Positions 41,761-58,808 of a stretch of 64,000 nt of DNA are shown here, in pieces; the first letter of the stretch is position 1, and each line of letters opens with the position of its first letter. The translations under genes were made by a program, and so were the position numbers. The DNA comes from Ectothiorhodospiraceae bacterium BW-2 (lineage in GTDB: Bacteria > Pseudomonadota > Gammaproteobacteria > Thiohalomonadales > Thiohalomonadaceae): contig CP032507.1 in assembly GCA_008375315.1 (NCBI GenBank), positions 1,178,001-1,242,000 on the forward strand, given 5' to 3'. The notes beneath the pieces were generated by a model. The model ran no database searches and was not told where the DNA came from. It was given only the letters and a program-made list of their open reading frames with translations.

Positions 41761-41786
41761 GTCGGGTTAGCGCGGTGTAACCCGAC
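41761..41786. repeat. Palindrome at the 3' end of array copy A (repeated after every copy)
   Basis: GTCGGGTTA and TAACCCGAC form a perfect 9-bp stem with an 8-nt loop; the stop codon of copy A (41767-41769) lies inside the left arm. Near-identical palindromes end every other copy (for example 45536-45561, with one mismatch). The motif resembles a repeat widespread after proteobacterial genes. Confidence 0.75.
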
Positions 41787-43569
41787 ACCCCTCTCGCCAC
41801 ACCAACCGTTTGGTACCAAGACTCACCACCGCAAACGATTTTAATTTCCACTCCACCGCCGGAAAGAGCTGCTGTAGTTTCGGTTGATACGAGGCTAACT
41901 GCCCCTCTGCCTCATCTAACAGCTTTTTCACCGGCGCCAACTCAGCTAGCTGCTCCCGACTCAGCTCATTTAGCTGCTCTGCGCTCAATTTGAGATCTTT
42001 CAGTGCCAGATATTTCAGCTCAAATAGCAGATCATACAGCGGTGCTTGGCGCTTATCGGGGCGAATCTCAAATAGAAGGTCACTATAGCCGCCGCCTAAG
42101 GAGAGCTCTGAGCGCGGCAGATAGTAGAGGTCATTGGTCAGCAGCAGTAATAGTGTGGTTTTGAGCGTCAACTCGTTACTCCAGCGCATATCGCGATTAT
42201 CGAATATCTGATAGAGGCGCTGTTCGATAAAGTCGGCCAGTGGCTCAAATTCAGCCTTGGTATAGAGCTGTTTTGCCACCGCCTGCTGGCGGTTATTATC
42301 CTCATAGCCATTGAGTAGCTGCTGTTGAATGCGGTCGATATAGAGCGAGCGCACTACTTGATTGGGAATCGTCACCGTTAACTCCCCTAACAGAGTCACC
42401 GAGTCAATCGTTAATACCCCAAAATAGACCAGTAGCGAGATGATAAAACTAGCATCGGACGGATCTTTGAGCATCGCCGCTACGCCAAAGTCCTGTACCA
42501 GCTTCGCTACCTGCAGCGGCTGCTGCGGATTGAGTGCCGATTCAATCACCTCAGCCCCATGGGGTAGTGAGGCGATATAGCGCAGCCGGTTTTTGTCCAT
42601 CGCTAAATTGTCATCTAGCAGCTCATTAGGGTAGCGACACAGCTGCTGCCACTCATCCCAAAAGTAGAGGCAGAGCGTCGGGTTGTAAAGCCGGGTGGTG
42701 TCAGCACCACTAAAACGGTAGCCGTTATAGAAGTTCTGCATCAGTGACATCGCCTCCTCTGCCGCCCCCTCGGGTAGTTCGCACTCTAGCGCTATCTGCT
42801 GATTAAGCTGCATCACCTCCTCTCCGGTGAAGCCGCAGAGTTTGGCAAAACGAGGCCGCTGACTGATATTTTTTGCCACATTGTAGCCGCTGGTGATATC
42901 GCTCATCACCACCGGTGAGACGCCGGTGATAAAGACTCGCTCTAAGCCTAAGCCATCGGTCGCCGCTTTGACCGCTTTAAATACCGTTTTAATCACCCCT
43001 TCACTCTCAACTAGCTCGTTATAGCGCTGCCGACCCTGCTCGCGACTGGTTAGCACCTCATTAGCAAAGTTATCGTACTCATCAATTAGCAGGTAGAGCG
43101 GAAAATTAAACCGTTTCGCCACACTCAGTAGCTGTTCAAATGAGCCCAGCCCATCTGTTGGGTCGATCGGCACCGTTTCCGGTAAAAAGTCGTGGTAGCG
43201 GGCCGAAAAAAAGCTGATTGAGTTATTAATGTGGCGATGAATACGGCTCACTAGCTGCTGATAATCACCTCCCGGATCAATCATCGAAAAATTCCACCTT
43301 AAAATAAAGTAGCGGTTACGGTTCGGGGTCGGGTTTTGCCCTATCGCTAAATCGCCAAACAGGGTCTCAAATTGGTCTGCGGCACCGATATCGTAGTAGC
43401 TCTCTAGCAGCGTTAGCCACAGCGTTTTACCAAAGCGGCGCGGGCGTAGAAACAAGATCTGTTCGCCAACGGCTTCAAGCTCGTGCAGCAGTTCGGTGCG
43501 ATCAAAGTAGAGCTGGCCATCGGTTCTTAACCGCTTAAAATCGCCTTTGCCATACGGAATCTTTACCAT
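41767..43569 (-). CDS. AAA-ATPase-like/PD-(D/E)XK protein, array copy A (modules N1-V1-M1)
   Basis: 600 residues, architecture AAA-ATPase_like (PF09820) then DUF1703/PDDEXK_9; function unknown, often expanded and found near mobile DNA. P-loop LRPRRFGKT at 41-49, Walker B LYLLIDEYD at 158-166, a sensor-like ITGVSPVVMSDITSGYN at 214-230, and a nuclease core with Asp 497 (GGGYSDLLFEI) and ELK at 517-519. Modules: N1 (GKGDFKRLRTDGQLYF), V1 cassette (IDPGGDYQQLVSRIHRHIN) and M1 (IDSVTLLGELTVT). AAGGAG precedes the ATG. It is the last copy in transcription order and its tail (WREGCRVTPR) is coded by the 3' palindrome. Confidence 0.88.
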   Translation of the reverse strand: MVKIPYGKGDFKRLRTDGQLYFDRTELLHELEAVGEQILFLRPRRFGKTLWLTLLESYYDIGAADQFETLFGDLAIGQNPTPNRNRYFILRWNFSMIDPGGDYQQLVSRIHRHINNSISFFSARYHDFLPETVPIDPTDGLGSFEQLLSVAKRFNFPLYLLIDEYDNFANEVLTSREQGRQRYNELVESEGVIKTVFKAVKAATDGLGLERVFITGVSPVVMSDITSGYNVAKNISQRPRFAKLCGFTGEEVMQLNQQIALECELPEGAAEEAMSLMQNFYNGYRFSGADTTRLYNPTLCLYFWDEWQQLCRYPNELLDDNLAMDKNRLRYIASLPHGAEVIESALNPQQPLQVAKLVQDFGVAAMLKDPSDASFIISLLVYFGVLTIDSVTLLGELTVTIPNQVVRSLYIDRIQQQLLNGYEDNNRQQAVAKQLYTKAEFEPLADFIEQRLYQIFDNRDMRWSNELTLKTTLLLLLTNDLYYLPRSELSLGGGYSDLLFEIRPDKRQAPLYDLLFELKYLALKDLKLSAEQLNELSREQLAELAPVKKLLDEAEGQLASYQPKLQQLFPAVEWKLKSFAVVSLGTKRLVWREGCRVTPR

Positions 43570-43654
43570 GTTTGCTCCTTACAATACCTTCGCCAAAGTT
43601 TGTTGCTTCCCACGGTAAGCGTGGGAACCCAAAAAGCGCCTACCGTAGGTCGGG

Positions 43655-45456
43655 TTAGCGCAGCATAGCCCGACACCCATCACGCCACACCAACCGTTTG
43701 GTACCAAGACTCACCACCGCAAATGGTTTTAACTGCCACTCCACCGCCGGAAAGAGCTGCTGTAGTTTCGGTTGATACGAGGCTAACTGCACCTCTGCGT
43801 CATCTAACAGCTTTTTCACCGGCGCCAACTCAGCTAGCTGCTCCCGACTCAGCTCATTTAGCTGCTCTGCGCTCAATTTGAGATCTTTCAGTGACAGATA
43901 TTTCAGTTCAAATAGCAGATCATACAGCGGTGCTTGGCGCTTATCGGGGCGAATCTCAAATAGAAGGTCACTATAGCCACCGCCTAAGGAGAGCTCTGAG
44001 CGCGGCAGGTAGTAGAGGTCATTGGTCAGCAGCAGTAGTAGCGTGGTTTTGAGCGTCAACTCGTTACTCCAGCGCATATCGCGGTTATCGAATATCTGAT
44101 AGAGACGCTGTTCGATAAAGTCGGCCAGTGGCTCAAATTCAGCCTAGGTATAGACGATCTTCTGACACCGCCTGCTGGCGGTTATTATCCTCATAGCCAT
44201 TGAGTAGCTGCTGTTGAATGCGGTCGATATAGAGCGAGCGCACGACTTGATTGGAATCCGCACCGTTAACTCCCTAACAGAGTCACCGAGTCAATCGTTA
44301 ATACCCCAAAATAGACCAGTAGCGAGATGATAAAACTGGCATCGGACGGATCTTTGAGCATCGCCGCTACGCCAAAGTCCTGTACCAATTTTTCTACCTG
44401 TAGTGGCTGCTGCGGATTAAGCGCTGCCTCAATCACCTCCGCTCCGTGCGGTAGTGAGGCGATATAGCGCAGCCGGTTTTTGTCCATCGCTAAATTGTCA
44501 TCTAGCAGCTCATTAGGGTAGCGACACAGCTGCTGCCACTCATCCCAAAAGTAGAGGCAGAGCGTCGGGTTGTAAAGCCGGGTGGTGTCAGCACCACTAA
44601 AACGGTAGCCGTTATAGAAGTTCTGCATCAGTGACATCGCCTCCTCTGCCGCCCCCTCGGGTAGTTCGCACTCTAGCGCTATCTGCTGATTAAGCTGCAT
44701 CACCTCCTCTCCGGTGAAGCCGCAGAGTCTGGCAAAACGAGGCCGCTGACTGATATTTTTTGCCACATTGTAGCCGCTGGTGATATCGCTCATCACCACC
44801 GGTGAGACGCCGGTGATAAAGACTCGCTCTAAGCCTAAGCCATCGGTCGCCGCTTTGACCGCTTTAAATACCGTTTTAATCACCCCTTCACTCTCAACTA
44901 GCTCATGGTAGCTCTCTCGCCCCTTGTCGCGGCGGGTGAGTACCTCATTAGCAAAGTTGTCATACTCATCAATCAACAGGTAGAGGGGCGTGTTAAGGGG
45001 GCGAATTGCCGCTAGCAGGCGGCTCAAGGAGCTCAGTGCATTACCAGATTGAATCGCAATCGGTAGCGTCAATAACTTTTGGTAGCGAATAGTAAAGTCG
45101 TTTATCGAATCGTTAATGTGATCGTGCACCCGTTGTGCAATGTCGTTATGGCTGCCGTGCGGATCAATGACCGAAAAGTTCCACTTCAACATAAAATAGC
45201 GGTTACGGTTCGGGGTCGAGTTTTGCCCTATCGCTAAATCGCCAAACAGGGTCTCAAATTGGTCTGCGGCACCAATATCGTAGTAGCTCTCTAGCAGCGT
45301 TAGCCACAGCGTTTTACCAAAGCGGCGCGGGCGTAGAAACAAGATCTGTTCGCCAACGGCTTCAAGCTCGTGCAGCAGTTCGGTGCGATCAAAGTAGAGC
45401 TGGCCATCGGTTCTTAATCGCTTAAAATCGCCTTTGCCATACGGAATCTTTACCAT
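43655..45456 (-). pseudogene. AAA-ATPase-like/PD-(D/E)XK protein, array copy B (N1-V2-M1), disrupted
   Basis: Same family and length as copy A (1802 bp instead of 1803), but broken. The first 396 codons are open (45456-44266) and carry N1 and cassette V2 (VIDPHGSHNDIAQRVHDHIN). In M1 a C run of four is shortened to three (44272-44274), giving LLGS and a stop; a second 1-bp loss follows within 20 bp. Around 44143-44165 a Lys codon has become TAG and there is a 1-bp gain. The rest, from MRWSNELTLK to the end, is open again and intact. The patchy damage in two short stretches could be decay or poor sequence. Confidence 0.8.
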
Positions 45457-45541
45457 GTTTGCTCCTTACAATACCTTCGCCAAAGTTTGTTGCTTCCCAC
45501 GGTAAGCGTGGGAACCCAAAAAGCGCCTACCGTAGGTCGGG
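45457..45541. repeat. 85-bp array spacer (six copies)
   Basis: Spacers of exactly 85 bp precede the N1-type genes, at 43570-43654, 45457-45541, 47345-47429, 51184-51268, 53083-53167 and 56909-56993, almost identical in sequence. Each contains, reading on the plus strand, the AAGGAG complement, the 16-bp motif CAATACCTTCGCCAAA, a hairpin (TTCCCACG, GTAAG, CGTGGGAA) and the left arm of the 3' palindrome of the following gene. Confidence 0.9.
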
Positions 45542-47344
45542 TTAGCGCAGCATAGCCCGACACCCATCACGCCACACCAACCGTTTGGTACCAAGACTCA
45601 CCACCGCAAATGATTTTAACTGCCACTCCACCGCCGGAAAGAGCTGCTGTAGTTTCGGTTGATACGAGGCTAACTGCCCCTCTGCGTCATCTAACAGCTT
45701 TTTCACCGGCGCCAACTCAGCTAGCTGCTCCCGACTCAGCTCATTTAGCTGCTCTGCGCTCAATTTGAGATCTTTCAGTGACAGATATTTCAGTTCAAAT
45801 AGCAGATCATACAGCGGTGCTTGGCGCTTATCGGGGCGAATCTCAAATAAGAGATCACTATAGCCGCCGCCTAAGGAGAGCTCTGAGCGCGGCAGATAGT
45901 AGAGGTCATTGGTCAGCAGCAGTAGTAGCGTGGTTTTGAGCGTCAACTCATTACTCCAGCGCATATCGCGGTTATCGAATATCTGATAGAGGCGTTGCTC
46001 GATAAAGTCAGCCAGTGGCTCAAATTCAGCCTCGGTATAGAGCTGCTCCGCCACTGCCTGTTGGCGGTTATTATCCTCATAGCCATTGAGTAGCTGCTGT
46101 TGAATGCGGTCGATATAGAGCGAGCGAACCACTTGATTAGGAATGGCTACCTTCAGCTTCCCTAGTGGCGAGACATCCTGAATCGTCAATACCCCAAAAT
46201 AGACCAGTAGCGAGATGATAAAACTAGCATCGGACGGATCTTTGAGCATCGCCGCTACGCCAAAGTCCTGTACCAGCTTCGCTACCTGCAGCGGCTGCTG
46301 CGGATTGAGTGCCGATTCAATCACCTCAGCCCCATGGGGTAGTGAGGCGATATAGCGCAGCCGGTTTTTGTCCATCGCTAAATTGTCATCTAGCAGCTCA
46401 TTAGGGTAGCAACACAGCTGCTGCCACTCATCCCAAAAGTAGAGGCAGAGCGTCGGGTTGTAAAGCCGGGTGGTGTCAGCACCACTAAAACAGTAGCCGT
46501 TATAGAAGTTCTGCATCAGTGACATCGCCTCCTCTGCCGCCCCCTCGGGTAGTTCGCACTCTAGCGCTATCTGCTGATTAAGCTGCATCACCTCCTCTCC
46601 GGTGAAGCCACAGAGTCTGGCAAAACGAGGCCGCTGACTGATATTTTTTGCCACATTGTAGCCGCTGGTGATATCGCTCATCACCACCGGTGAGACGCCG
46701 GTGATAAAGACTCGCTCTAAGCCTAAGCCATCGGTCGCCGCTTTGACCGCTTTAAATACCGTTTTAATCACCCCTTCACTCTCAACTAGCTCGTTATAGC
46801 GCTGCCGACCCTGCTCGCGACTGGTTAGCACCTCATTAGCAAAGTTATCGTACTCATCAATTAGCAGGTAGAGCGGAAAATTAAACCGTTTCGCCACACT
46901 CAGTAGCTGTTCAAATGAGCCCAGCCCATCTGTTGGGTCGATCGGCACCGTTTCCGGTAAAAAGTCGTGGTAGCGGGCCGAAAAAAAGCTGATTGAGTTA
47001 TTAATGTGGCGATGAATACGGCTCACTAGCTGCTGATAATCACCTCCCGGATCAATCATCGAAAAATTCCACCTTAAAATAAAGTAGCGGTTACGGTTCG
47101 GGGTCGGGTTTTGCCCTATCGCTAAATCGCCAAACAGGGTCTCAAATTGGTCTGCGGCACCGATATCGTAGTAGCTCTCTAGCAGCGTTAGCCACAGCGT
47201 TTTACCAAAGCGGCGCGGGCGTAGAAACAAGATCTGTTCGCCAACGGCTTCAAGCTCGTGCAGCAGTTCGGTGCGATCAAAGTAGAGCTGGCCATCGGTT
47301 CTTAACCGCTTAAAATCGCCTTTGCCATACGGAATCTTTACCAT
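45542..47344 (-). CDS. AAA-ATPase-like/PD-(D/E)XK protein, array copy C (N1-V1-M2)
   Basis: Intact 600-residue member. N-terminal block N1 and cassette V1 are the same as in copy A, but the middle block is M2 (IQDVSPLGKLKVAIPNQ) with AEQLYTEAEF in place of AKQLYTKAEF. It has two uncommon substitutions, NGYCFSGAD and LCCYPNELL, which it shares with copy G only, so a stretch of several hundred bases has been exchanged between copies C and G. All catalytic-type motifs are kept. Confidence 0.88.
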   Translation of the reverse strand: MVKIPYGKGDFKRLRTDGQLYFDRTELLHELEAVGEQILFLRPRRFGKTLWLTLLESYYDIGAADQFETLFGDLAIGQNPTPNRNRYFILRWNFSMIDPGGDYQQLVSRIHRHINNSISFFSARYHDFLPETVPIDPTDGLGSFEQLLSVAKRFNFPLYLLIDEYDNFANEVLTSREQGRQRYNELVESEGVIKTVFKAVKAATDGLGLERVFITGVSPVVMSDITSGYNVAKNISQRPRFARLCGFTGEEVMQLNQQIALECELPEGAAEEAMSLMQNFYNGYCFSGADTTRLYNPTLCLYFWDEWQQLCCYPNELLDDNLAMDKNRLRYIASLPHGAEVIESALNPQQPLQVAKLVQDFGVAAMLKDPSDASFIISLLVYFGVLTIQDVSPLGKLKVAIPNQVVRSLYIDRIQQQLLNGYEDNNRQQAVAEQLYTEAEFEPLADFIEQRLYQIFDNRDMRWSNELTLKTTLLLLLTNDLYYLPRSELSLGGGYSDLLFEIRPDKRQAPLYDLLFELKYLSLKDLKLSAEQLNELSREQLAELAPVKKLLDDAEGQLASYQPKLQQLFPAVEWQLKSFAVVSLGTKRLVWRDGCRAMLR

Positions 47345-47429
47345 GTTTGCTCCTTACAATACCTTCGCCAAAGTTTGTTGCTTCCCACGGTAAGCGTGGG
47401 AACCCAAAAAGCGCCTACCGTAGGTCGGG

Positions 47430-49232
47430 TTAGCGCAGCATAGCCCGACACCCATCACGCCACACCAACCGTTTGGTACCAAGACTCACCACCGCAAATG
47501 GTTTTAACTGCCACTCCACCGCCGGAAAGAGCTGCTGTAGTTTCGGTTGATACGAGGCTAACTGCACCTCTGCGTCATCTAACAGCTTTTTCACCGGCGC
47601 CAACTCAGCTAGCTGCTCCCGACTCATATCAGATAGCTGCTCTGCACTCAATTTGAGATCTTTCAGTGACAGATATTTCAGTTCAAATAGCAGATCATAC
47701 AGCGGTGCTTGGCGCTTATCGGGGCGAATCTCAAATAGAAGGTCACTATAGCCGCCGCCTAAGGAGAGCTCTGAGCGCGGCAGGTAGTAGAGATCATTAG
47801 TTAACAGGAGCAACAGCACTGTTTTGAGCGTCAACTCGTTACTCCAGCGCATATCGCGATTATCGAATATCTGATAGAGGCGTTGCTCGATAAAGTCAGC
47901 CAGTGGCTCAAATTCAGCCTCGGTATAGAGCTGCTCCGCCACTGCCTGTTGGCGGTTATTATCCTCATAGCCATTGAGTAGCTGCTGTTGAATGCGGTCG
48001 ATATAGAGCGAGCGAACCACTTGATTAGGAATGGCTACCTTCAGCTTCCCTAGTGGCGAGACATCCTGAATCGTCAATACCCCAAAATAGACCAGTAGCG
48101 AGATGATAAAACTAGCATCGGACGGATCTTTGAGCATCGCCGCTACGCCAAAGTCCTGTACCAGCTTCGCTACCTGTAGTGGCTGCTGCGTATTAAGCGC
48201 TGCCTCAATCACCTCCGCTCCGTGCGGTAGTGAGGCGATATAGCGCAGCCGGTTTTTGTCCATCGCTAAATTGTCATCTAGTAGCTCATTAGGGTAGCGA
48301 CACAGCTGCTGCCACTCATCCCAAAAGTAGAGGCAGAGCGTCGGGTTGTAAAGCCGGGTGGTGTCAGCACCACTAAAACGGTAGCCGTTATAGAAGTTCT
48401 GCATCAGTGACATCGCCTCCTCTGCCGCCCCCTCGGGTAGTTCGCACTCTAGCGCTATCTGCTGATTAAGCTGCATCACCTCCTCTCCGGTGAAGCCGCA
48501 GAGTTTGGCAAAACGAGGCCGCTGACTGATATTTTTTGCCACATTATAGCCGCTGGTGATATCGCTCATCACCACCGGTGAGACGCCGGTGATAAAGACT
48601 CGCTCTAAGCCTAAGCCATCGGTCGCCGCTTTGACCGCTTTAAATACCGTTTTAATCACCCCTTCACTCTCAACTAACTCATGGTAGCTCTCTCGCCCCT
48701 TGTCGCGGCGGGTGAGTACCTCATTAGCAAAGTTGTCATACTCATCAATCAACAGGTAGAGGGGCGTGTTAAGGGGGCGAATTGCCGCTAGCAGGCGGCT
48801 CAAGGAGCTCAGTGCATTACCAGATTGAATCGCAATCGGTAGCGTCAATAACTTTTGGTAGCGAATAGTAAAGTCGTTTATCGAATCGTTAATGTGATCG
48901 TGCACCCGTTGTGCAATGTCGTTATGGCTGCCGTGCGGATCAATGACCGAAAAGTTCCACTTCAACATAAAATAGCGGTTACGGTTCGGGGTCGAGTTTT
49001 GCCCTATCGCTAAATCGCCAAACAGGGTCTCAAATTGGTCTGCGGCACCGATATCGTAGTAGCTCTCTAGCAGCGTTAGCCACAGCGTTTTGCCAAAGCG
49101 GCGCGGGCGTAGAAACAGGAGCTGCCGTCCTGCGGCCTCTAAGTCGTGCAGTGACTTGGTGCGATCAAAGTAGAGTCCGTTCTCCTCTCTGAGGGTTTTA
49201 AAGTGACCTAAACCATACGAAATCTTTACCAT
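47430..49232 (-). CDS. AAA-ATPase-like/PD-(D/E)XK protein, array copy D (N2-V2-M2)
   Basis: Intact 600-residue member with the second N-terminal type (SYGLGHFKTLREENGLYF, DLEAAGRQLLF), cassette V2 and middle block M2. The switch from N2 to sequence common with all copies falls at the P-loop (LRPRRFGKT). Near the C terminus it reads LSAEQLSDMSREQ, a variant shared only with copy F, and LTLKTVLLLLL rather than the more common KTT. Its upstream spacer is the longer, 136-bp class. Confidence 0.88.
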   Translation of the reverse strand: MVKISYGLGHFKTLREENGLYFDRTKSLHDLEAAGRQLLFLRPRRFGKTLWLTLLESYYDIGAADQFETLFGDLAIGQNSTPNRNRYFMLKWNFSVIDPHGSHNDIAQRVHDHINDSINDFTIRYQKLLTLPIAIQSGNALSSLSRLLAAIRPLNTPLYLLIDEYDNFANEVLTRRDKGRESYHELVESEGVIKTVFKAVKAATDGLGLERVFITGVSPVVMSDITSGYNVAKNISQRPRFAKLCGFTGEEVMQLNQQIALECELPEGAAEEAMSLMQNFYNGYRFSGADTTRLYNPTLCLYFWDEWQQLCRYPNELLDDNLAMDKNRLRYIASLPHGAEVIEAALNTQQPLQVAKLVQDFGVAAMLKDPSDASFIISLLVYFGVLTIQDVSPLGKLKVAIPNQVVRSLYIDRIQQQLLNGYEDNNRQQAVAEQLYTEAEFEPLADFIEQRLYQIFDNRDMRWSNELTLKTVLLLLLTNDLYYLPRSELSLGGGYSDLLFEIRPDKRQAPLYDLLFELKYLSLKDLKLSAEQLSDMSREQLAELAPVKKLLDDAEVQLASYQPKLQQLFPAVEWQLKPFAVVSLGTKRLVWRDGCRAMLR

Positions 49233-49368
49233 GTGCGATCCTTAATTGACTCGTTGACACGCTCATGCGTGGGAATGGAGACCTACCTTCAAATAACGCC
49301 AGTATGGATTCCCACGGTGACCAAGAGAACCAGAATACCCAGACAAAAAGCGCCTACCGTAGGTCGGG
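49233..49368. repeat. 136-bp array spacer (two copies)
   Basis: Spacers at 49233-49368 and 54971-55106 have the same length and sequence and precede the N2-type copies D and G. They lack the CAATACCTTCGCCAAA motif and the short hairpin of the 85-bp class, but contain separated GCGTGGGAA and TTCCCACG arms about 30 bp apart, and rejoin the common sequence at AAAAAGCGCCTACCG. Confidence 0.88.
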
Positions 49369-51183
49369 TTAGCGCAGTGTAACCCGACACCCCTCTCGCC
49401 ACACCAACCGTTTAGTACCAAGACTCACCACCGCAAACGATTTTAACTGCCACACCACCGCCGGAAAGAGCTGCTGTAGTTTCGGTTGATACGAGGCTAA
49501 CTGCCCCTCTGCGTCATCTAACAGCTTTTTCACCGGCGCCAACTCAGCTAGCTGCTCCCGACTCAGCTCATTTAGCTGTTCTGCGCTCAATTTGAGATCT
49601 TTCAGTGACAGATATTTCAGTTCAAATAGCAGATCATACAGCGGTGCTTGGCGCTTATCGGGGCGAATCTCAAATAAGAGATCACTATAACCACCGCCTA
49701 AGGAGAGCTCGGAGCGCGGCAGATAGTAGAGGTCATTGGTCAGCAGCAGTAATAGTGTGGTTTTGAGCGTCAACTCATTGCTCCAGCGCATATCGCGGTT
49801 ATCGAACACACAATAGAGGCGTTGCTCGATAAAGTCGGCCAGTGGCTCAAATTCGGCCTCGGTATAGAGTTGCTCCGCCACTGCCTGTTGGCGGTTATTA
49901 TCCTCATAGCCATTGAGTAGCTGCTGTTGAATGCGGTCGATATAGAGCGAGCGAACCACTTGATTAGGAATGGCTACCTTCAGCTTCCCTAGTGGCGAGA
50001 CATCCTGAATCGTCAATACCCCAAAATAGACCAGTAGCGAGATGATAAAACTAGCATCGGACGGATCTTTGAGCATCGCCGCTACGCCAAAGTCCTGTAC
50101 CAATTTTTCTACCTGTAGTGGCTGCTGCGGATTAAGCGCTGCCTCAATCACCTCCGCTCCGTGCGGTAGTGAGGCGATATAGCGCAGCCGGTTTTTGTCC
50201 ATCGCTAAATTGTCATCTAGCAGCTCATTAGGGTAGCGACACAGCTGCTGCCACTCATCCCAAAAGTAGAGGCAGAGCGTCGGGTTGTAAAGCCGGGTGG
50301 TGTCAGCACCACTAAAACGGTAGCCGTTATAGAAGTTCTGCATCAGTGACATCGCCTCCTCTGCCGCCCCCTCGGGTAGTTCGCACTCTAGCGCTATCTG
50401 CTGATTAAGCTGCATCACCTCCTCTCCGGTGAAGCCGCAGAGTCTGGCAAAACGAGGCCGCTGACTGATATTTTTTGCCACATTGTAGCCGCTGGTGATA
50501 TCGCTCATCACCACCGGTGAGACGCCGGTGATAAAGACTCGCTCTAAGCCTAAACCATCGGTCGCCGCTTTGACCGCTTTAAATACCGTTTTAATCACCC
50601 CTTCACTCTCAACTAACTCATGGTAGCTCTCTCGCCCCTTGTCGCGGCGGGTGAGTACCTCATTAGCAAAGTTGTCATACTCATCAATGAGTAGATAGAG
50701 CGGATAGCCTGCATGACGGCATCGACTAACTAGTCGCTCAAGAGAGCGCAAAGCATCCGCTTCATCAATCAGCTCCGCTGCACTAATCGCGTGGGGCCAC
50801 CACGATTGATAGCGAAGTAACGCATCACGAATACTATTATTGATATGGCCATACAGCCCCTGTTTGATCTGCTCATGGTCGCCATTTGGATTAATGGTGG
50901 AGAAGTTCCACCTTAATATGAAGTAGCGATTGCGGTTCGGGGTCGGGTTTTGCCCTATCGCTAAATCGCCAAACAGGGTCTCAAATTGGTCTGCGGCACC
51001 GATGTCGTAATAGCTCTCTAGTAGTGTTAGCCACAGCGTTTTACCAAAGCGGCGCGGGCGTAAAAACAAGATCTGTTCGCCAACGGCTTCAAGCTCGTGC
51101 AGCAGTTCGGTGCGATCAAAGTAGAGCTGGCCATCGGTTCTTAACCGCTTAAAATCGCCTTTGCCATACGGAATCTTTACCAT
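49369..51183 (-). CDS. AAA-ATPase-like/PD-(D/E)XK protein, array copy E (N1-V3-M2)
   Basis: Intact 604-residue member with cassette V3 (TINPNGDHEQIKQGLYGHIN, then ELIDEADALRSLERLV), four residues longer than V1 and V2. N1 and M2 flank it. A private substitution (RLYCVFDNRD for RLYQIFDNRD) lies before the nuclease core. The linker after Walker B is the RRDKGRESYHEL type. Confidence 0.88.
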   Translation of the reverse strand: MVKIPYGKGDFKRLRTDGQLYFDRTELLHELEAVGEQILFLRPRRFGKTLWLTLLESYYDIGAADQFETLFGDLAIGQNPTPNRNRYFILRWNFSTINPNGDHEQIKQGLYGHINNSIRDALLRYQSWWPHAISAAELIDEADALRSLERLVSRCRHAGYPLYLLIDEYDNFANEVLTRRDKGRESYHELVESEGVIKTVFKAVKAATDGLGLERVFITGVSPVVMSDITSGYNVAKNISQRPRFARLCGFTGEEVMQLNQQIALECELPEGAAEEAMSLMQNFYNGYRFSGADTTRLYNPTLCLYFWDEWQQLCRYPNELLDDNLAMDKNRLRYIASLPHGAEVIEAALNPQQPLQVEKLVQDFGVAAMLKDPSDASFIISLLVYFGVLTIQDVSPLGKLKVAIPNQVVRSLYIDRIQQQLLNGYEDNNRQQAVAEQLYTEAEFEPLADFIEQRLYCVFDNRDMRWSNELTLKTTLLLLLTNDLYYLPRSELSLGGGYSDLLFEIRPDKRQAPLYDLLFELKYLSLKDLKLSAEQLNELSREQLAELAPVKKLLDDAEGQLASYQPKLQQLFPAVVWQLKSFAVVSLGTKRLVWREGCRVTLR

Positions 51184-51268
51184 GTTTGCTCCTTACAATA
51201 CCTTCGCCAAAGTTTGTCGCTTCCCACGGTAAGCGTGGGAACCCAAAAAGCGCCTACCGTAGGTCGGG

Positions 51269-53082
51269 TTAGCGCAGCATAACCCGACACCCATCACGCC
51301 ACACCAACCGTTTGGTACCAAGACTCACCACCGCAAATGATTTTAACTGCCACACCACCGCCGGAAAGAGCTGCTGTAGTTTCGGTTGATACGAGGCTAA
51401 CTGCCCCTCTGCCTCATCTAACAGCTTTTTCACCGGTGCCAACTCAGCTAGCTGCTTCCGACTCATATCAGATAGCTGCTCTGCACTCAATTTGAGATCT
51501 TTCAGTGACAGATATTTCAGTTCAAATAGCAGATCATACAGCGGTGCTTGGCGCTTATCGGGGCGAATCTCAAATAGAAGGTCACTATAGCCGCCGCCTA
51601 AGGAGAGCTCTGAGCGCGGCAGGTAGTAGAGATCATTAGTTAACAGGAGCAACAGCACTGTTTTGAGCGTCAACTCATTACTCCAGCGCATATCGCGATT
51701 ATCGAATATCTGATAGAGGCGCTGTTCGATAAAGTCGGCCAGTGGCTCAAATTCAGCCTCGGTATAGAGCTGTTTTGCCACCGCCTGTTGGCGGTTATTA
51801 TCCTCATAGCCATTGAGTAGCTGCTGTTGAATGCGGTCGATATAGAGCGAGCGCACGACTTGATTGGGAATCGTCACCGTTAACTCCCCTAACAGAGTCA
51901 CCGAGTCAATCGTTAATACCCCAAAATAGACCAGTAGCGAGATGATAAAACTGGCATCGGACGGATCTTTGAGCATCGCCGCTACGCCAAAGTCCTGTAC
52001 CAATTTTTCTACCTGTAGTGGCTGCTGCGTATTAAGCGCTGCCTCAATCACCTCCGCTCCGTGCGGTAGTGAGGCGATATAGCGCAGCCGGTTTTTGTCC
52101 ATCGCTAAATTGTCATCTAGCAGCTCATTAGGGTAGCGACACAGCTGCTGCCACTCATCCCAAAAGTAGAGGCAGAGCGTCGGGTTGTAAAGCCGGGTGG
52201 TGTCAGCACCACTAAAACGGTAGCCGTTATAGAAGTTCTGCATCAGTGACATTGCCTCCTCTGCCGCCCCCTCGGGTAGTTTGCACTCTAGCGCTATCTG
52301 CTGATTAAGCTGCATCACCTCCTCTCCGGTGAAGCCGCAGAGTCTGGCAAAACGAGGCCGCTGACTGATATTTTTTGCCACATTGTAGCCGCTGGTGATA
52401 TCGCTCATCACCACCGGTGAGACGCCGGTGATAAAGACTCGCTCTAAGCCTAAACCATCGGTCGCCGCTTTGACCGCTTTAAATACCGTTTTAATCACCC
52501 CTTCACTCTCAACTAACTCATGGTAGCTCTCTCGCCCCTTGTCGCGGCGGGTGAGTACCTCATTAGCAAAGTTGTCATACTCATCAATGAGTAGATAGAG
52601 CGGATAGCCTGCATGACGGCATCGACTAACTAGTCGCTCAAGAGAGCGCAAAGCATCCGCTTCATCAATCAGCTCCGCTGCACTAATCGCGTGGGCCACC
52701 ACGATTGATAGCGAAGTAACGCATCACGAATACTATTATTGATATGGCCATACAGCCCCTGTTTGATCTGCTCATGGTCGCCATTTGGATTAATGGTGGA
52801 GAAGTTCCACCTTAATATGAAGTAGCGATTGCGGTTCGGGGTCGGGTTTTGCCCTATCGCTAAATCGCCAAACAGGGTCTCAAATTGGTCTGCGGCACCG
52901 ATGTCGTAATAGCTCTCTAGTAGTGTTAGCCACAGCGTTTTACCAAAGCGGCGCGGGCGTAAAAACAAGATCTGTTCGCCAACGGCTTCAAGCTCGTGCA
53001 GCAGTTCGGTGCGATCAAAGTAGAGCTGGCCATCGGTTCTTAACCGCTTAAAATCGCCTTTGCCATACGGAATCTTTACCAT
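51269..53082 (-). pseudogene. AAA-ATPase-like/PD-(D/E)XK protein, array copy F (N1-V3-M1), one frameshift
   Basis: The 1814-bp gene matches copy E up to the V3 cassette, where a run of four C (coding strand) is shortened to three at 52693-52695. The frame from 53082 ends soon after (SWWPTRLVQRS) and the remaining 477 codons are open in the next frame. Adding one base restores 604 residues with N1, V3 and M1 and the LSDMSRKQ variant. With no other lesion, it is either newly broken, phase-variable or a sequencing error. Confidence 0.8.
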
Positions 53083-53167
53083 GTTTGCTCCTTACAATAC
53101 CTTCGCCAAAGTTTGTCGCTTCCCACGGTAAGCGTGGGAACCCAAAAAGCGCCTACCGTAGGTCGGG

Positions 53168-54970
53168 TTAGCGCAGCATAGCCCGACACCCATCACGCCA
53201 CACCAACCGTTTGGTACCAAGACTCACTACCGCAAACGATTTTAACTGCCACACCACCGCCGGAAAGAGCTGCTGTAGTTTCGGTTGATACGAGGCTAAC
53301 TGCCCCTCTGCCTCATCTAACAGCTTTTTCACCGGTGCCAACTCAGCTAGCTGCTCCCGACTCATCTTTGCTAGCTGTTCTGAGCTTACTTTAAGATCTT
53401 TCAGTGACAAGTACTTCAGTTCAAATAGCAGATCATACAGCGGTGCTTGGCGCTTATCGGGGCGAATCTCAAATAAGAGATCACTATAGCCGCCGCCTAA
53501 GGAGAGCTCTGAGCGCGGCAGATAGTAGAGGTCATTGGTCAGCAGCAGTAGTAGCGTGGTTTTGAGCGTCAACTCATTACTCCAGCGCATATCGCGGTTA
53601 TCGAATATCTGATAGAGGCGTTGCTCGATAAAGTCAGCCAGTGGCTCAAATTCAGCCTCGGTATAGAGCTGCTCCGCCACTGCCTGTTGGCGGTTATTAT
53701 CCTCATAGCCATTGAGTAGCTGCTGTTGAATGCGGTCGATATAGAGCGAGCGAACCACTTGATTAGGAATGGCTACCTTCAGCTTCCCTAGTGGCGAGAC
53801 ATCCTGAATCGTCAATACCCCAAAATAGACCAGTAGCGAGATGATAAAACTAGCATCGGACGGATCTTTGAGCATCGCCGCTACGCCAAAGTCCTGTACC
53901 AGCTTCGCTACCTGCAGCGGCTGCTGCGGATTGAGTGCCGATTCAATCACCTCAGCCCCATGGGGTAGTGAGGCGATATAGCGCAGCCGGTTTTTGTCCA
54001 TCGCTAAATTGTCATCTAGCAGCTCATTAGGGTAGCAACACAGCTGCTGCCACTCATCCCAAAAGTAGAGGCAGAGCGTCGGGTTGTAAAGCCGGGTGGT
54101 GTCAGCACCACTAAAACAGTAGCCGTTATAGAAGTTCTGCATCAGTGACATCGCCTCCTCTGCCGCCCCCTCGGGTAGTTCGCACTCTAGCGCTATCTGC
54201 TGATTAAGCTGCATCACCTCCTCTCCGGTGAAGCCACAGAGTCTGGCAAAACGAGGCCGCTGACTGATATTTTTTGCCACATTGTAGCCGCTGGTGATAT
54301 CGCTCATCACCACCGGTGAGACGCCGGTGATAAAGACTCGCTCTAAGCCTAAGCCATCGGTCGCCGCTTTGACCGCTTTAAATACCGTTTTAATCACCCC
54401 TTCACTCTCAACTAGCTCGTTATAGCGCTGCCGACCCTGCTCGCGACTGGTTAGCACCTCATTAGCAAAGTTATCGTACTCATCAATTAGCAGGTAGAGC
54501 GGAAAATTAAACCGTTTCGCCACACTCAGTAGCTGTTCAAATGAGCCCAGCCCATCTGTTGGGTCAATCGGCACCGTTTCCGGTAAAAAATCGTGGTAGC
54601 GTGCCGAAAAAAAGCTGATTGAGTTATTAATGTGGCGATGAATACGGCTCACTAGCTGCTGATAATCACCTCCCGGATCAATCATCGAAAAGTTCCACCT
54701 TAAAATAAAGTAGCGGTTACGGTTCGGTGTCGGGTTTTGCCCTATCGCTAAATCGCCAAACAGGGTCTCAAATTGGTCTGCGGCACCGATATCGTAGTAA
54801 CTCTCTAGCAGCGTTAGCCACAGCGTTTTACCAAAGCGGCGCGGGCGTAGAAACAGGAGCTGCCGTCCTGCGGCCTCTAAGTCGTGCAGTGACTTGGTGC
54901 GATCAAAATAGAGTCCGTTCTCCTCTCTGAGGGTTTTAAAGTGACCTAAACCATACGAAATCTTTATCAT
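53168..54970 (-). CDS. AAA-ATPase-like/PD-(D/E)XK protein, array copy G (N2-V1-M2)
   Basis: Intact 600-residue member with N2 (begins MIKISYGLGHFKTL), cassette V1 and M2. It shares NGYCFSGAD and LCCYPNELL with copy C. The segment after the nuclease core is unique to this copy: LKVSSEQLAKMSREQ. The upstream spacer is the 136-bp class, as for the other N2 copy inside the array. Confidence 0.88.
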   Translation of the reverse strand: MIKISYGLGHFKTLREENGLYFDRTKSLHDLEAAGRQLLFLRPRRFGKTLWLTLLESYYDIGAADQFETLFGDLAIGQNPTPNRNRYFILRWNFSMIDPGGDYQQLVSRIHRHINNSISFFSARYHDFLPETVPIDPTDGLGSFEQLLSVAKRFNFPLYLLIDEYDNFANEVLTSREQGRQRYNELVESEGVIKTVFKAVKAATDGLGLERVFITGVSPVVMSDITSGYNVAKNISQRPRFARLCGFTGEEVMQLNQQIALECELPEGAAEEAMSLMQNFYNGYCFSGADTTRLYNPTLCLYFWDEWQQLCCYPNELLDDNLAMDKNRLRYIASLPHGAEVIESALNPQQPLQVAKLVQDFGVAAMLKDPSDASFIISLLVYFGVLTIQDVSPLGKLKVAIPNQVVRSLYIDRIQQQLLNGYEDNNRQQAVAEQLYTEAEFEPLADFIEQRLYQIFDNRDMRWSNELTLKTTLLLLLTNDLYYLPRSELSLGGGYSDLLFEIRPDKRQAPLYDLLFELKYLSLKDLKVSSEQLAKMSREQLAELAPVKKLLDEAEGQLASYQPKLQQLFPAVVWQLKSFAVVSLGTKRLVWRDGCRAMLR

Positions 54971-55106
54971 GTACGATCCTTAATTGACTCGTTGACACGC
55001 TCATGCGTGGGAATGGAGACCTACCTTCAAATAACGCCAGTATGGATTCCCACGGTGACCAAGAGAACCAGAATACCCAGACAAAAAGCGCCTACCGTAG
55101 GTCGGG

Positions 55107-56908
55107 TTAGCGCAGCATAACCCGACACCCCTCTCGCCACACCAACCGTTTAGTACCAAGACTCACCACCGCAAATGATTTTAACTGCCACACCACCGCC
55201 GGAAAGAGCTGCTGTAGTTTTGGTTGATACGAGGCTAACTGCCCCTCTGCGTCATCTAACAGCTTTTTCACCGGCGCCAACTCAGCTAGCTGCTCCCGAC
55301 TCAGCTCATTTAGCTGTTCTGCGCTCAATTTGAGATCTTTCAGTGACAGATATTTCAGTTCAAATAGCAGATCATACAGCGGTGCTTGGCGCTTATCGGG
55401 GCGAATCTCAAATAGAAGGTCACTATAGCCACCGCCTAAGGAGAGCTCTGAGCGCGGCAGGTAGTAGAGATCATTAGTTAACAGGAGCAACAGCACTGTT
55501 TTGAGCGTCAACTCGTTACTCCAGCGCATATCGCGATTATCGAATATCTGATAGAGGCGTTGCTCGATAAAGTCAGCCAGTGGCTCAAATTCAGCCTCGG
55601 TATAGAGCTGCTCCGCCACTGCCTGTTGGCGGTTATTATCCTCATAGCCATTGAGTAGCTGCTGTTGAATGCGGTCGATATAGAGCGAGCGAACCACTTG
55701 ATTAGGAATGGCTACCTTCAGCTTCCCTAGTGGCGAGACATCCTGAATCGTCAATACCCCAAAATAGACCAGTAGCGAGATGATAAAACTAGCATCGGAC
55801 GGATCTTTGAGCATCGCCGCTACGCCAAAGTCCTGTACCAGCTTCGCTACCTGCAGCGGCTGCTGCGGATTGAGTGCCGATTCAATCACCTCAGCCCCAT
55901 GGGTAGTGAGGCGATATAGCGCAGCCGGTTTTTGTCCATCGCTAAATTGTCATCTAGCAGCTCATTAGGGTAGCGACACAGCTGCTGCCACTCATCCCAA
56001 AAGTAGAGGCAGAGCGTCGGGTTGTAAAGCCGGGTGGTGTCAGCACCACTAAAACGGTAGCCGTTATAGAAGTTCTGCATCAGTGACATCGCCTCCTCTG
56101 CCGCCCCCTCGGGTAGTTCGCACTCTAGCGCTATCTGCTGATTAAGCTGCATCACCTCCTCTCCGGTGAAGCCACAGAGTCTGGCAAAACGAGGCCGCTG
56201 ACTGATATTTTTTGCCACATTGTAGCCGCTGGTGATATCGCTCATCACTACCGGTGAGACGCCGGTGATAAAGACTCGCTCTAAGCCTAAACCATCGGTC
56301 GCTGCTTTGACCGCTTTAAATACCGTTTTAATCACTCCTTCACTCTCAACTAGCTCATGGTAGCTCTCTCGCCCCTTGTCGCGGCGGGTGAGTACCTCAT
56401 TAGCAAAGTTGTCATACTCATCAATCAACAGGTAGAGGGGCGTGTTAAGGGGGCGAATTGCCGCTAGCAGGCGGCTCAAGGAGCTCAGTGCATTACCAGA
56501 TTGAATCGCAATCGGTAGCGTCAATAACTTTTGGTAGCGAATAGTAAAGTCGTTTATCGAATCGTTAATGTGATCGTGCACCCGTTGTGCAATGTCGTTA
56601 TGGCTGCCGTGCGGATCAATGACCGAAAAGTTCCACTTCAACATAAAATAGCGGTTACGGTTCGGTGTCGGGTTTTGCCCTATCGCTAAATCGCCAAACA
56701 GGGTCTCAAATTGGTCTGCGGCACCGATATCGTAGTAGCTCTCTAGCAGCGTTAGCCACAGCGTTTTACCAAAACGGCGCGGGCGTAAAAACAAGATCTG
56801 TTCGCCAACGGCTTCAAGCTCGTGCAGCAGTTCGGTGCGATCAAAGTAGAGCTGGCCATCGGTTCTTAATCGCTTAAAATCGCCTTTGCCATACGGAATC
56901 TTTACCAT
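55107..56908 (-). pseudogene. AAA-ATPase-like/PD-(D/E)XK protein, array copy H (N1-V2-M2), one frameshift
   Basis: 1802 bp. The upstream 340 codons (N1, V2) are open, then a four-base C run (coding strand) is reduced to three at 55901-55903, within YIASLPHGAE; the remaining 260 codons (M2 and the nuclease domain) are open in another frame. One added base gives a 600-residue protein like its neighbours. All known active-site motifs survive on either side of the shift. Confidence 0.8.
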
Positions 56909-56993
56909 GTTTGCTCCTTACAATACCTTCGCCAAAGTTTGTCGCTTCCCACGGTAAGCGTGGGAACCCAAAAAGCGCCTACCGTAGGTCGGG

Positions 56994-58808
56994 TTAGCGC
57001 AGCATAGCCCGACACCCATCACGCCACACCAACCGTTTGGTACCAAGACTCACCACCGCAAATGGTTTTAACTGCCACTCCACCGCCGGAAAGAGCTGCT
57101 GTAGTTTCGGTTGATACGAGGCTAACTGCACCTCTGCGTCATCTAACAGCTTTTTCACCGGCGCCAACTCAGCTAGCTGCTCCCGACTCAGCTCATTTAG
57201 CTGCTCTGCGCTCAATTTGAGATCTTTCAGTGACAGATATTTCAGCTCAAATAGCAGATCATACAGCGGTGCTTGGCGTTTATCGGGGCGAATCTCAAAT
57301 AGAAGGTCACTATAGCCACCGCCTAAGGAGAGCTCTGAGCGCGGCAGGTAGTAGAGGTCATTGGTCAGCAGCAGTAGTAGCGTGGTTTTGAGCGTCAACT
57401 CGTTACTCCAGCGCATATCGCGGTTATCGAATATCTGATAGAGACGCTGTTCGATAAAGTCGGCCAGTGGCTCAAATTCGGCCTCGGTATAGAGCTGTTT
57501 TGCCACCGCCTGCTGGCGGTTATTATCCTCATAGCCATTGAGTAGCTGCTGTTGAATGCGGTCGATATAGAGCGAGCGCACGACTTGATTGGGAATCGTC
57601 ACCGTTAACTCCCCTAACAGAGTCACCGAGTCAATCGTTAATACCCCAAAATAGACCAGTAGCGAGATGATAAAACTGGCATCGGACGGATCTTTGAGCA
57701 TCGCCGCTACGCCAAAGTCCTGTACCAATTTTTCTACCTGTAGTGGCTGCTGCGGATTAAGCGCTGCCTCAATCACCTCCGCTCCGTGCGGTAGTGAGGC
57801 GATATAGCGCAGCCGGTTTTTGTCCATCGCTAAATTGTCATCTAGCAGCTCATTAGGGTAGCGACACAGCTGCTGCCACTCATCCCAAAAGTAGAGGCAG
57901 AGCGTCGGGTTGTAAAGCCGGGTGGTGTCAGCACCACTAAAACGGTAGCCGTTATAGAAGTTCTGCATCAGTGACATCGCCTCCTCTGCCGCCCCCTCGG
58001 GTAGTTCGCACTCTAGCGCTATCTGCTGATTAAGCTGCATCACCTCTTCACCAGTCAAACCGCAGAGTTTGGCAAAGTGTGGCCGCTGACTGATATTTTT
58101 TGCCACATTGTAGCCGCTGGTGATATCGCTCATCACCACCGGTGAGACGCCGGTGATAAAGACTCGCTCTAAGCCTAAACCATCGGTCGCTGCTTTGACC
58201 GCTTTAAAGACGGTTTTTATCACCCCCTCACTCTCAACTAGCTCGTTATAGCGCTGCCGACCCTGTTCGCGACTGGTGAGTACCTCATTAGCAAAGTTGT
58301 CATACTCATCAATGAGTAGGTAGAGCGGATAGCCTGCATGACGGCATCGACTAACTAGTCTCTCAAGAGAGCGCAAAGCATCCGCTTCATCAATCAGCTC
58401 CGCTGCACTAACCGCTTGAGGCCACCACGATTGATAGCGAAGTAACGCATCTCGAATACTGTTATTGATATGGCCATACAGCCCCTGTTTGATCTGCTCA
58501 TGGTCGCCATTTGGATTAATGGTGGAGAAGTTCCACCTTAATATAAAGTAGCGATTGCGGTTCGGGGTCGGATTTTGGCCTATCGCTAAATCGCCAAACA
58601 GGGTCTCAAATTGATCTGCGGCAGCGATATCGTAATAGCTCTCTAGCAGCGTTAGCCACAGCGTTTTACCAAAACGGCGCGGGCGTAGAAACAGGAGCTG
58701 CCGTCCTGCGGCCTCTAAGTCGTGCAGTAACTTGGTGCGATCAAAGTAGAGTCCATTCTCCTCTCTGAGGGTTTGAAAGTGACCCAAGCCATACGGAATC
58801 TTTACCAT
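56994..58808 (-). CDS. AAA-ATPase-like/PD-(D/E)XK protein, array copy I (N2'-V3-M1), first in the array
   Basis: Intact 604-residue member and the first copy in transcription order, so its upstream DNA probably holds the array promoter. N2 is slightly divergent (PYGLGHFQTLREENGLYF, KLLHDLEAAGRQ). Cassette V3 here is joined to the SREQGRQRYNEL linker, whereas copies E and F join it to RRDKGRESYHEL. It also has private changes (HFAKLCGLTGEE) and is the most diverged copy at its 5' end. AAAGGATCATC precedes the ATG. Confidence 0.88.
   Translation of the reverse strand: MVKIPYGLGHFQTLREENGLYFDRTKLLHDLEAAGRQLLFLRPRRFGKTLWLTLLESYYDIAAADQFETLFGDLAIGQNPTPNRNRYFILRWNFSTINPNGDHEQIKQGLYGHINNSIRDALLRYQSWWPQAVSAAELIDEADALRSLERLVSRCRHAGYPLYLLIDEYDNFANEVLTSREQGRQRYNELVESEGVIKTVFKAVKAATDGLGLERVFITGVSPVVMSDITSGYNVAKNISQRPHFAKLCGLTGEEVMQLNQQIALECELPEGAAEEAMSLMQNFYNGYRFSGADTTRLYNPTLCLYFWDEWQQLCRYPNELLDDNLAMDKNRLRYIASLPHGAEVIEAALNPQQPLQVEKLVQDFGVAAMLKDPSDASFIISLLVYFGVLTIDSVTLLGELTVTIPNQVVRSLYIDRIQQQLLNGYEDNNRQQAVAKQLYTEAEFEPLADFIEQRLYQIFDNRDMRWSNELTLKTTLLLLLTNDLYYLPRSELSLGGGYSDLLFEIRPDKRQAPLYDLLFELKYLSLKDLKLSAEQLNELSREQLAELAPVKKLLDDAEVQLASYQPKLQQLFPAVEWQLKPFAVVSLGTKRLVWRDGCRAMLR

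Follow-up and report, generated by a model that had tools for sequence, protein, structure and literature searches.

Proteins of the obscure DUF1703 family, in which an AAA+ ATPase domain is joined to a PD-(D/E)XK nuclease domain, are widespread and expanded in many bacteria. The architecture, its motifs and its link to archaeal ATPases were defined by Knizewski et al. (PMC1913061). The closest described system is the expansion of the family in Cardinium cCpun and midge Rickettsia (Siozios et al. 2019, PMC6387759), with ~25 paralogs carrying PF09820 and PF08011 and displaying intragenic recombination by RDP4 and by the pairwise homoplasy index (PHI). Here, we analyze a 64,000-nt stretch of the chromosome of Ectothiorhodospiraceae bacterium BW-2 (CP032507.1, positions 1,178,001 to 1,242,000; hereafter, the window), which contains an array of nine head-to-tail DUF1703-family paralogs of ~1.8 kb each on the minus strand (41767-58808), as described in an earlier note on this sequence. 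The array resembles the Cardinium expansion in its domains and in its recombination. Unlike the array genes, the Cardinium paralogs are highly divergent (mean 39% amino acid identity) and were proposed to be secreted nucleases, and the portions of the published account on which we draw describe neither discrete cassettes, tandem arrays, position-fixed swaps, and genome-wide sharing, nor a fold like that of signal transduction ATPases with numerous domains (STAND) and nucleotide-binding leucine-rich repeat (NLR) receptors. Recombination among DUF1703 paralogs was thus already known; what is new, as far as we could find, is that it involves discrete, recurrent, position-fixed cassettes and that these lie on a predicted NLR-like core. 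The open-access full-text literature yielded no report of such cassettes, of their sharing across a genome, of their recurrence across subfamilies and phyla, or of an NLR/apoptosome-core match in DUF1703.

The genes of the array, in transcription order, and three representative spacers are the following:

Gene I, 56994..58808, minus strand: N2 V3 M1, intact, 604 aa, first in transcription order (open reading frame and block map)
Gene H, 55107..56908, minus strand: N1 V2 M2, 1802 nt, frameshifted (CCCC to CCC near codon 340)
Gene G, 53168..54970, minus strand: N2 V1 M2, intact, 600 aa
Gene F, 51269..53082, minus strand: N1 V3 M1, 1814 nt, frameshifted (1-nt deletion near codon 130, within V3)
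Gene E, 49369..51183, minus strand: N1 V3 M2, intact, 604 aa
Gene D, 47430..49232, minus strand: N2 V2 M2, intact, 600 aa
Gene C, 45542..47344, minus strand: N1 V1 M2, intact, 600 aa
Gene B, 43655..45456, minus strand: N1 V2 with a private M variant, 1802 nt, one frameshift near codon 400 and a second ~115 nt further
Gene A, 41767..43569, minus strand: N1 V1 M1, intact, 600 aa, last in transcription order
Spacer H to G, 54971..55106, minus strand: 136 nt, leader of an N2 gene
Spacer E to D, 49233..49368, minus strand: 136 nt, leader of an N2 gene
Spacer B to A, 43570..43654, minus strand: 85 nt, contains the palindrome TTCCCACGCTTACCGTGGGAA

A nucleotide block map of the nine genes reproduced exactly the two N, three V, and two M classes that the earlier note had recognized: N separates ABCEFH from DGI (columns 22-115), V separates ACG, BDH, and EFI (columns ~267-500), and M separates ABFI from CDEGH (columns 1170-1230). 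The mosaic extends beyond the three main blocks of the earlier description; an additional partition, ACGH|BDEFI, is found at columns 1023-1068, the M variant of gene B occurs in no other copy, and shuffling affects the C-terminal third of the genes as well, in line with the minor markers that the earlier note saw shuffled near the C terminus. The copies also carry private substitutions. Recombination among the array paralogs is beyond doubt: the observed PHI is 0.155 compared with 0.592 in permuted alignments (p <= 0.0005), and the minimum number of recombination events (Hudson-Kaplan Rmin) is 30. The N block moves together with its leader, because spacer length follows the N class, with 136 nt preceding the N2 genes D and G and 85 nt preceding the N1 genes. 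The fact that all nine combinations are different and balanced with respect to V, which the earlier note had stressed, carries no weight as an argument; it is expected about once in 16 times (P = 0.061) under independent shuffling of N and M with the V counts fixed at those observed. Hence, the all-different pattern is not evidence of design and its symmetry indicates only the near absence of linkage between the blocks, and the argument from unique combinations was dropped. Products of the intact genes are 600-604 aa long, and three of the nine reading frames (B, F, and H) are disrupted by small indels. Two of these three frameshifts fall at short homopolymers, where sequencing error may be responsible, whereas that of F does not.

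The earlier description of the array holds but stops short, since the same cassettes are found in four other arrays of the chromosome. The single 4.07-Mb contig contains ~36 full-length PF09820 genes in nine clusters, of which the window array is one. Subfamily S1, to which the array belongs, comprises 21 genes in five arrays located in distinct genomic contexts: nine in the window and 3, 3, 4, and 2 elsewhere, plus one fragment. Five V types circulate among these genes, namely, V1 (A, C, G, a1-a3, d3), V2 (B, D, H, c4), V3 (E, F, I, b1, b2), V4 (b3, c1, d2), and V5 (c2, c3), and the 21 genes display 19 distinct combinations of the N, V, P, H2, and M blocks. A single topology common to all blocks, named in the earlier note as the outcome that would speak against recombination, was not obtained: in approximately unbiased (AU) tests, each block rejects the trees of all the others. 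Furthermore, a 338-nt identical tract spanning V1 is shared by genes A and C with d3, which lies 1.6 Mb away and has an overall identity of only 86%, and a 190-nt identical N tract is shared by D and d3. In terms of polymorphic sites, these identical runs extend over 214 (A-d3) and 81 (D-d3) positions, against permutation maxima of 31 and 24. Given these tracts, d3 is a mosaic: its N and V1 are of the window type, and its H2 is of the type found in the other arrays. The proposal of repeated recombination or gene conversion in the array is thus strongly supported by PHI, Rmin, the AU tests, and the 338-nt tract. The organization differs from pilin-type antigenic variation in that 18 of the 21 S1 genes have full-length frames and there is no single expression locus.

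The assignment of the proteins to an AAA-ATPase-like/PD-(D/E)XK class was likewise upheld. P0001 and P0002 match PF09820 (AAA-ATPase_like, N-terminal) with 148.7 and 148.9 bits and PF08011 (PDDEXK_9, C-terminal) with 26.4 and 25.7 bits, respectively, all above the gathering cut-offs (26.1 bits for PF09820, 25.5 bits for PF08011), an architecture that corresponds to the DUF1703 family. NCBIfam has no model for this family, and a PDB sequence search found no solved relative. The characteristic motifs, namely, Walker A of the RPRRFGK[ST] type, Walker B DEYD, and the PD-(D/E)XK residues, are present, and in an alignment of 149 sequences, G47, K48, D167, E168, D170, D501, and K523 are invariant, whereas E521 is conserved in 148 (one E521Q); the predicted nuclease site is therefore intact. 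An AlphaFold2 model built from a 137-homolog alignment reached a predicted local distance difference test score (pLDDT) of 90 and a predicted template modelling score of 0.88, compared with the poor pLDDT of 47 in an earlier prediction from 20 close paralogs. When residues ~1-424 of this predicted model were compared with known structures (Foldseek and VIA-align 2), the best matches were the archaeal ATPases 2qen (Z 17.7) and 2fna (16.8), along with the plant NLRs RPP1 (16.2) and WRR4A (15.4), CED-4 (14.3), Apaf-1 (13.0), archaeal Orc proteins of the Orc1/Cdc6 type (11-13), and BrxC (10.6), whereas the C-terminal part matched the nuclease region of Wolbachia CinB-type proteins (Z 11.8). The predicted order of a P-loop nucleotide-binding domain (NBD), a helical lid, and a winged-helix domain (WHD) is that of STAND NTPases, although a shared fold is no proof of function. 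The variable blocks map onto this core as exemplified by gene I:

N block of gene I, 58689..58808, minus strand: aa 1-40 (block map)
Walker A of gene I, 58662..58685, minus strand: RPRRFGKT, aa 42-49, conserved backbone
V cassette of gene I, 58329..58520, minus strand: aa 97-160, with model helices at 103-124, 135-138, and 144-158
Walker B of gene I, 58293..58325, minus strand: LIDEYDNF region, aa 162-172, conserved backbone
H2 block of gene I, 57849..58088, minus strand: aa 241-320, lid/helical domain
M block of gene I, 57573..57788, minus strand: aa 341-412, winged-helix domain, the main swap being the beta-hairpin wing at aa 390-405
PD-(D/E)XK domain of gene I, 57021..57488, minus strand: C-terminal, aa 441-596, with D501, E521, and K523
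V1 cassette of gene A, 43102..43281, minus strand: identical to V1 of gene d3, inside the 338-nt identical tract

On the model, V corresponds to the helices between the second beta-strand (87-93) and the Walker B strand (162-167), H2 to the lid, and M to the winged helix with its hairpin. At the start of the lid, an invariant CG (C249, G250) precedes F/L-T/x, which is not clearly the GxP motif that marks the lid of STAND NTPases. H2 is of a single type within the window array and of two types genome-wide.

The V cassettes are ancient, and each type is functionally constrained. Between V types, the nonsynonymous divergence (dN) is 0.49-0.88 and the synonymous divergence (dS) exceeds 1.8 or is saturated, whereas within one V type dN/dS is ~0.07-0.15 even across arrays, indicative of purifying selection. 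New diversity is therefore produced mainly by re-assortment of old types and less by point mutation.

Variation at the same positions recurs beyond S1. In the same genome, the six genes of S3, which form one array, pair two V types with two types of wing in every one of the four possible ways (PHI p = 0.001), and the three S2 genes vary in the same region between Walker A and Walker B; in each of the four S4 genes, a single block (N, V, lid, or wing) is private to that gene, which is weaker evidence that S4 varies at the same place as S1-S3. Relatives from other genera were drawn from genome collections and paralog pairs within each genome were compared region by region. Pairs that are 91-97% identical in the backbone are only 35-58% identical in V, compared with the 82-93% expected. 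Thus, L220 and L221 of Allochromatium palmeri are 97% identical in the backbone and 35% in V (93% expected), an adjacent Allochromatium pair (L219) drops to 56% in V and 54% in the wing region, and in Parabeggiatoa (L097/L145) H2 alone is swapped (V 100%, H2 33%). Similar region-restricted pairs were found in Contendobacter, Halochromatium, Lamprobacter, a Thiotrichaceae bin, and an Anaerolineales genome, so that the same place varies in Chromatiaceae, relatives of Beggiatoa, and Chloroflexi. Relative to the backbone, paralog divergence exceeds the between-genome rate 2.3-3.5-fold at residues 101-160, 2.1-2.5-fold at 241-320, and 1.5-fold at 341-360, 381-400, and 421-440, with most other windows near or below 1-fold; since pairs within one genome are mutually dependent, these figures are descriptive and do not amount to a formal test. 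The best named homologs come from Competibacter, Contendobacter, and Chromatiaceae, and homologs cluster in filamentous or aggregate-forming taxa, many of the carriers being free-living. The homologs that searches recovered from phages and plasmids are all distant, with 24-44% identity across most of the length. In a Thiomargarita metagenome-assembled genome (L190, 1-5561), two DUF1703 copies ~3.8 kb apart encode ~100% identical proteins and thus reveal a recent duplication without cassette change.

What these cassettes might do can be framed in terms of the predicted core. Each gene would encode a self-contained intracellular switch, with a STAND/NLR-like core composed of the P-loop NBD, helical lid, and winged helix, and a C-terminal PD-(D/E)XK nuclease. 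Discrete modules are exchanged among tandem and distant paralogs by gene conversion or double crossover; these are the N strip, which takes its leader along, the helices of V, the lid (H2), and the wing of the winged helix (M). The catalytic ATPase and nuclease parts stay constant. V, H2, and M could then form or tune the input surface of the ATP-driven switch, such that the paralogs would differ in the trigger to which they respond, most probably a molecule of an invader (for instance, a phage product), and would all release the same nuclease. That gene conversion shuffles the input modules of an intracellular sensor-nuclease repertoire in which each paralog answers a different trigger is the interpretation we favor, at a little below an even chance, and the function of such a repertoire would probably be directed against invaders, as suggested by the NLR-like core, the constant effector, the diversified core modules, and the filamentous or aggregate-forming carriers. 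NTPase conflict systems are enriched in bacteria with such lifestyles, and diversifying ones have been reported there (PMC7159879, PMC10907252). The more specific proposal of a bacterial NLR-like receptor repertoire, in which the input modules of STAND-type sensor-nucleases are re-assorted combinatorially by gene conversion among ancient cassette alleles, in parallel in several subfamilies and phyla, is put forward more tentatively still. Selection for variety among the cassettes is plausible.

A repertoire of this kind would be separate from CRISPR, diversity-generating retroelements (DGRs), and the shuffling of restriction specificity. The predicted NBD-lid-WHD core is common to STAND NTPases (2qen, 2fna, plant NLRs, CED-4/Apaf-1, Avs), and a nuclease effector is fused to it as in Avs; the array proteins differ in lacking a repeat sensor, in the C-terminal position of the effector, and in the non-canonical Walker A (RPRRFGKT), and it is the NTPase core itself, not a repeat domain, that is diversified. 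In plant NLR clusters, tandem NBD-WHD paralogs exchange segments. The array shares with these clusters the tandem arrangement of recombining NBD-WHD switch paralogs, but is bacterial, encodes a single compact protein per gene, and exchanges segments also across megabases, and its immune role is putative. DGR-diversified NTPase conflict systems (PMC10907252) likewise link putative sensors to NTPase switches in filamentous or aggregating bacteria; those systems diversify by mutagenic reverse transcription, whereas the diversity of the array comes from recombination of ancient cassettes, to which new mutation adds little (dN/dS ~0.1 within a type). Exchange of discrete specificity modules between related genes is also known from the target recognition domains (TRDs) of type I restriction hsdS, but neither hsdR/hsdM nor an invertase is found among the examined genes flanking the array, and effector, ATPase, and variable parts reside in one protein. 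If the sensor reading is true, recombination of ancient cassettes would be a further route to immune-receptor diversity in bacteria and would provide a simple model for the evolution of NLR repertoires. The swap positions on the predicted NLR-like core, together with their recurrence in other subfamilies and distant phyla, yield a testable hypothesis for DUF1703 proteins, and since nature has already made the domain swaps, comparisons of paralogs with a difference in a single module could map trigger specificity.

Several observations weigh against the sensor reading. Pfam detects no repeat sensor domain of the LRR, TPR, or WD type, and the C terminus is occupied by the PD-(D/E)XK domain; PADLOC-DB 2.0 (2023 library) returned no system match, with one protein hitting MTase_II at chance level (E 0.037) and the other nothing. 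Neither defence genes nor a mobile element adjoin the array, its neighbors being housekeeping genes (tmk, holB, bioB, bioF), and PHI is not significant in S4 (p = 0.10, four genes). V1 is 60% identical to the V of G004, a homolog from another genus, compared with 35-42% to V2-V5 of its own genome, and a constraint of V-type monophyly relative to another genus gave p = 0.08 in the AU test, which is only suggestive that the V types are non-monophyletic. Finally, between genomes V, H2, and M evolve 2.16x, 1.80x, and 1.71x as fast as the backbone, and with V about twice as fast, part of the pattern may reflect relaxed constraint and heterology-limited conversion.

The latter consideration underlies the main rival, neutral concerted evolution, which we regard as unlikely, if worth serious attention. 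Under this scenario, conversion homogenizes the conserved stretches and halts at fast segments that have become too heterologous, leaving old divergent islands, so that the mosaics are a by-product and variety is not selected for. It would fit the intrinsically faster evolution of V, H2, and M, the compatibility of the all-different pattern with free shuffling (P = 0.06), and the frameshifts in three of the nine copies, but it does not readily account for V and H2 diverging between near-identical paralogs 2-3.5x above the between-genome rate, for the transfer of whole cassettes between arrays (the 338-nt tract), for purifying selection on each V type, or for the recurrence of the same positions in other subfamilies and phyla; without selection, such transfer would be expected to have left fewer than five types. 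A role in DNA targeting, with the cassettes setting specificity in the manner of type I restriction TRDs, seems improbable to us. V occupies the place of the initiator-specific motif (ISM) and M is the winged-helix hairpin, the two elements that contact DNA in the origin recognition complex (PMC7450096); Orc1/Cdc6 structures are among the fold matches (Z 11-13) and the M swap is centered on the predicted wing. Nevertheless, V and H2 carry a net negative charge in almost every homolog (on average -0.033 and -0.051 per residue, respectively), and since V is not basic we give less weight to a DNA-contact role for it; moreover, no methyltransferase or immunity gene adjoins the array, and the equation of V with ISM is based on topology rather than on residue-level superposition.

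Protomer interfaces offer another place where shuffled blocks could matter. The wheels of apoptosomes and resistosomes are built through contacts of the NBD, lid, and WHD, and these are the elements to which the swapped blocks map on the predicted model, so that shuffling might insulate co-expressed paralogs from cross-assembly. We consider this a slim prospect, because the window array contains three copies of each of its V types, a coexistence that insulation would disfavor. It is very unlikely that the proteins are secreted or host-directed nuclease effectors, as proposed for the Cardinium DUF1703 paralogs: the symbiont study reports expansion with recombination and predicted signal peptides (PMC6387759), whereas the N termini here (MVKIPYG...) lack, by eye, a hydrophobic signal stretch and many carriers are free-living. 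The least probable explanation, which we rate as close to negligible, is a chimeric assembly that produced spurious copies or block linkages. Some frameshifts do lie at short homopolymers, but the genome is a single contig with five arrays in distinct contexts, the copies have private substitutions, and the same type of mosaic is found in independently assembled genomes.

The array is flanked by tmk/holB on one side and by a Ca exchanger and bioB/bioF-type genes on the other, and the flanking genes also include TPR/YkuD genes. A scan for promoters and terminators did not rise above chance level. The palindrome TTCCCACGCTTACCGTGGGAA is found, without a T tract, in all six 85-nt spacers (window 43570-56993); the possibility that it is a genome-wide repetitive extragenic palindromic element was rejected, since six of the eight genomic copies of this palindrome type lie within this array.

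Other DUF1703 loci of the genome have distinctive surroundings. At L067 (5239-15413), the truncated C-terminal S1 fragment d1 and the intact d2 and d3 flank a gene for an 1811-aa protein with Lcl_C, Ig-like, and peptidase C13 domains. At L066 (3456-18051), another gene (MNYRLLPLLLSLLL...) is present in duplicated copies scattered among the three S2 paralogs, and a transposase-like gene (MARLPRIIVPGVPHHVTQRGNRRQ) is located nearby; the duplicated neighbors indicate that the repeated unit exceeds the ATPase gene. A serine-resolvase and TnpB-like pair (IS607-like) is located immediately upstream of the six-gene S3 array (L069, 14153-16188).

Two further variable families are encoded in the same genome. 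One, at L266 (4782-11828, ~364.8-371.8 kb of the chromosome), consists of five near-identical paralogs of 183-262 aa that start with MTTVAEDRELIKEV and contain a variable number of FEQMEKRFEQMQKTMDER-type coiled-coil repeats followed by a C-terminal membrane segment, and thus varies in repeat number. The other is a tandem AAA/STAND-like ATPase family (PF13401/AAA_35, with a weak ATPase_2 match; L068, 1099-10001, and L065, 3156-6792), with at least five copies in a row and two elsewhere, which varies blockwise as well.

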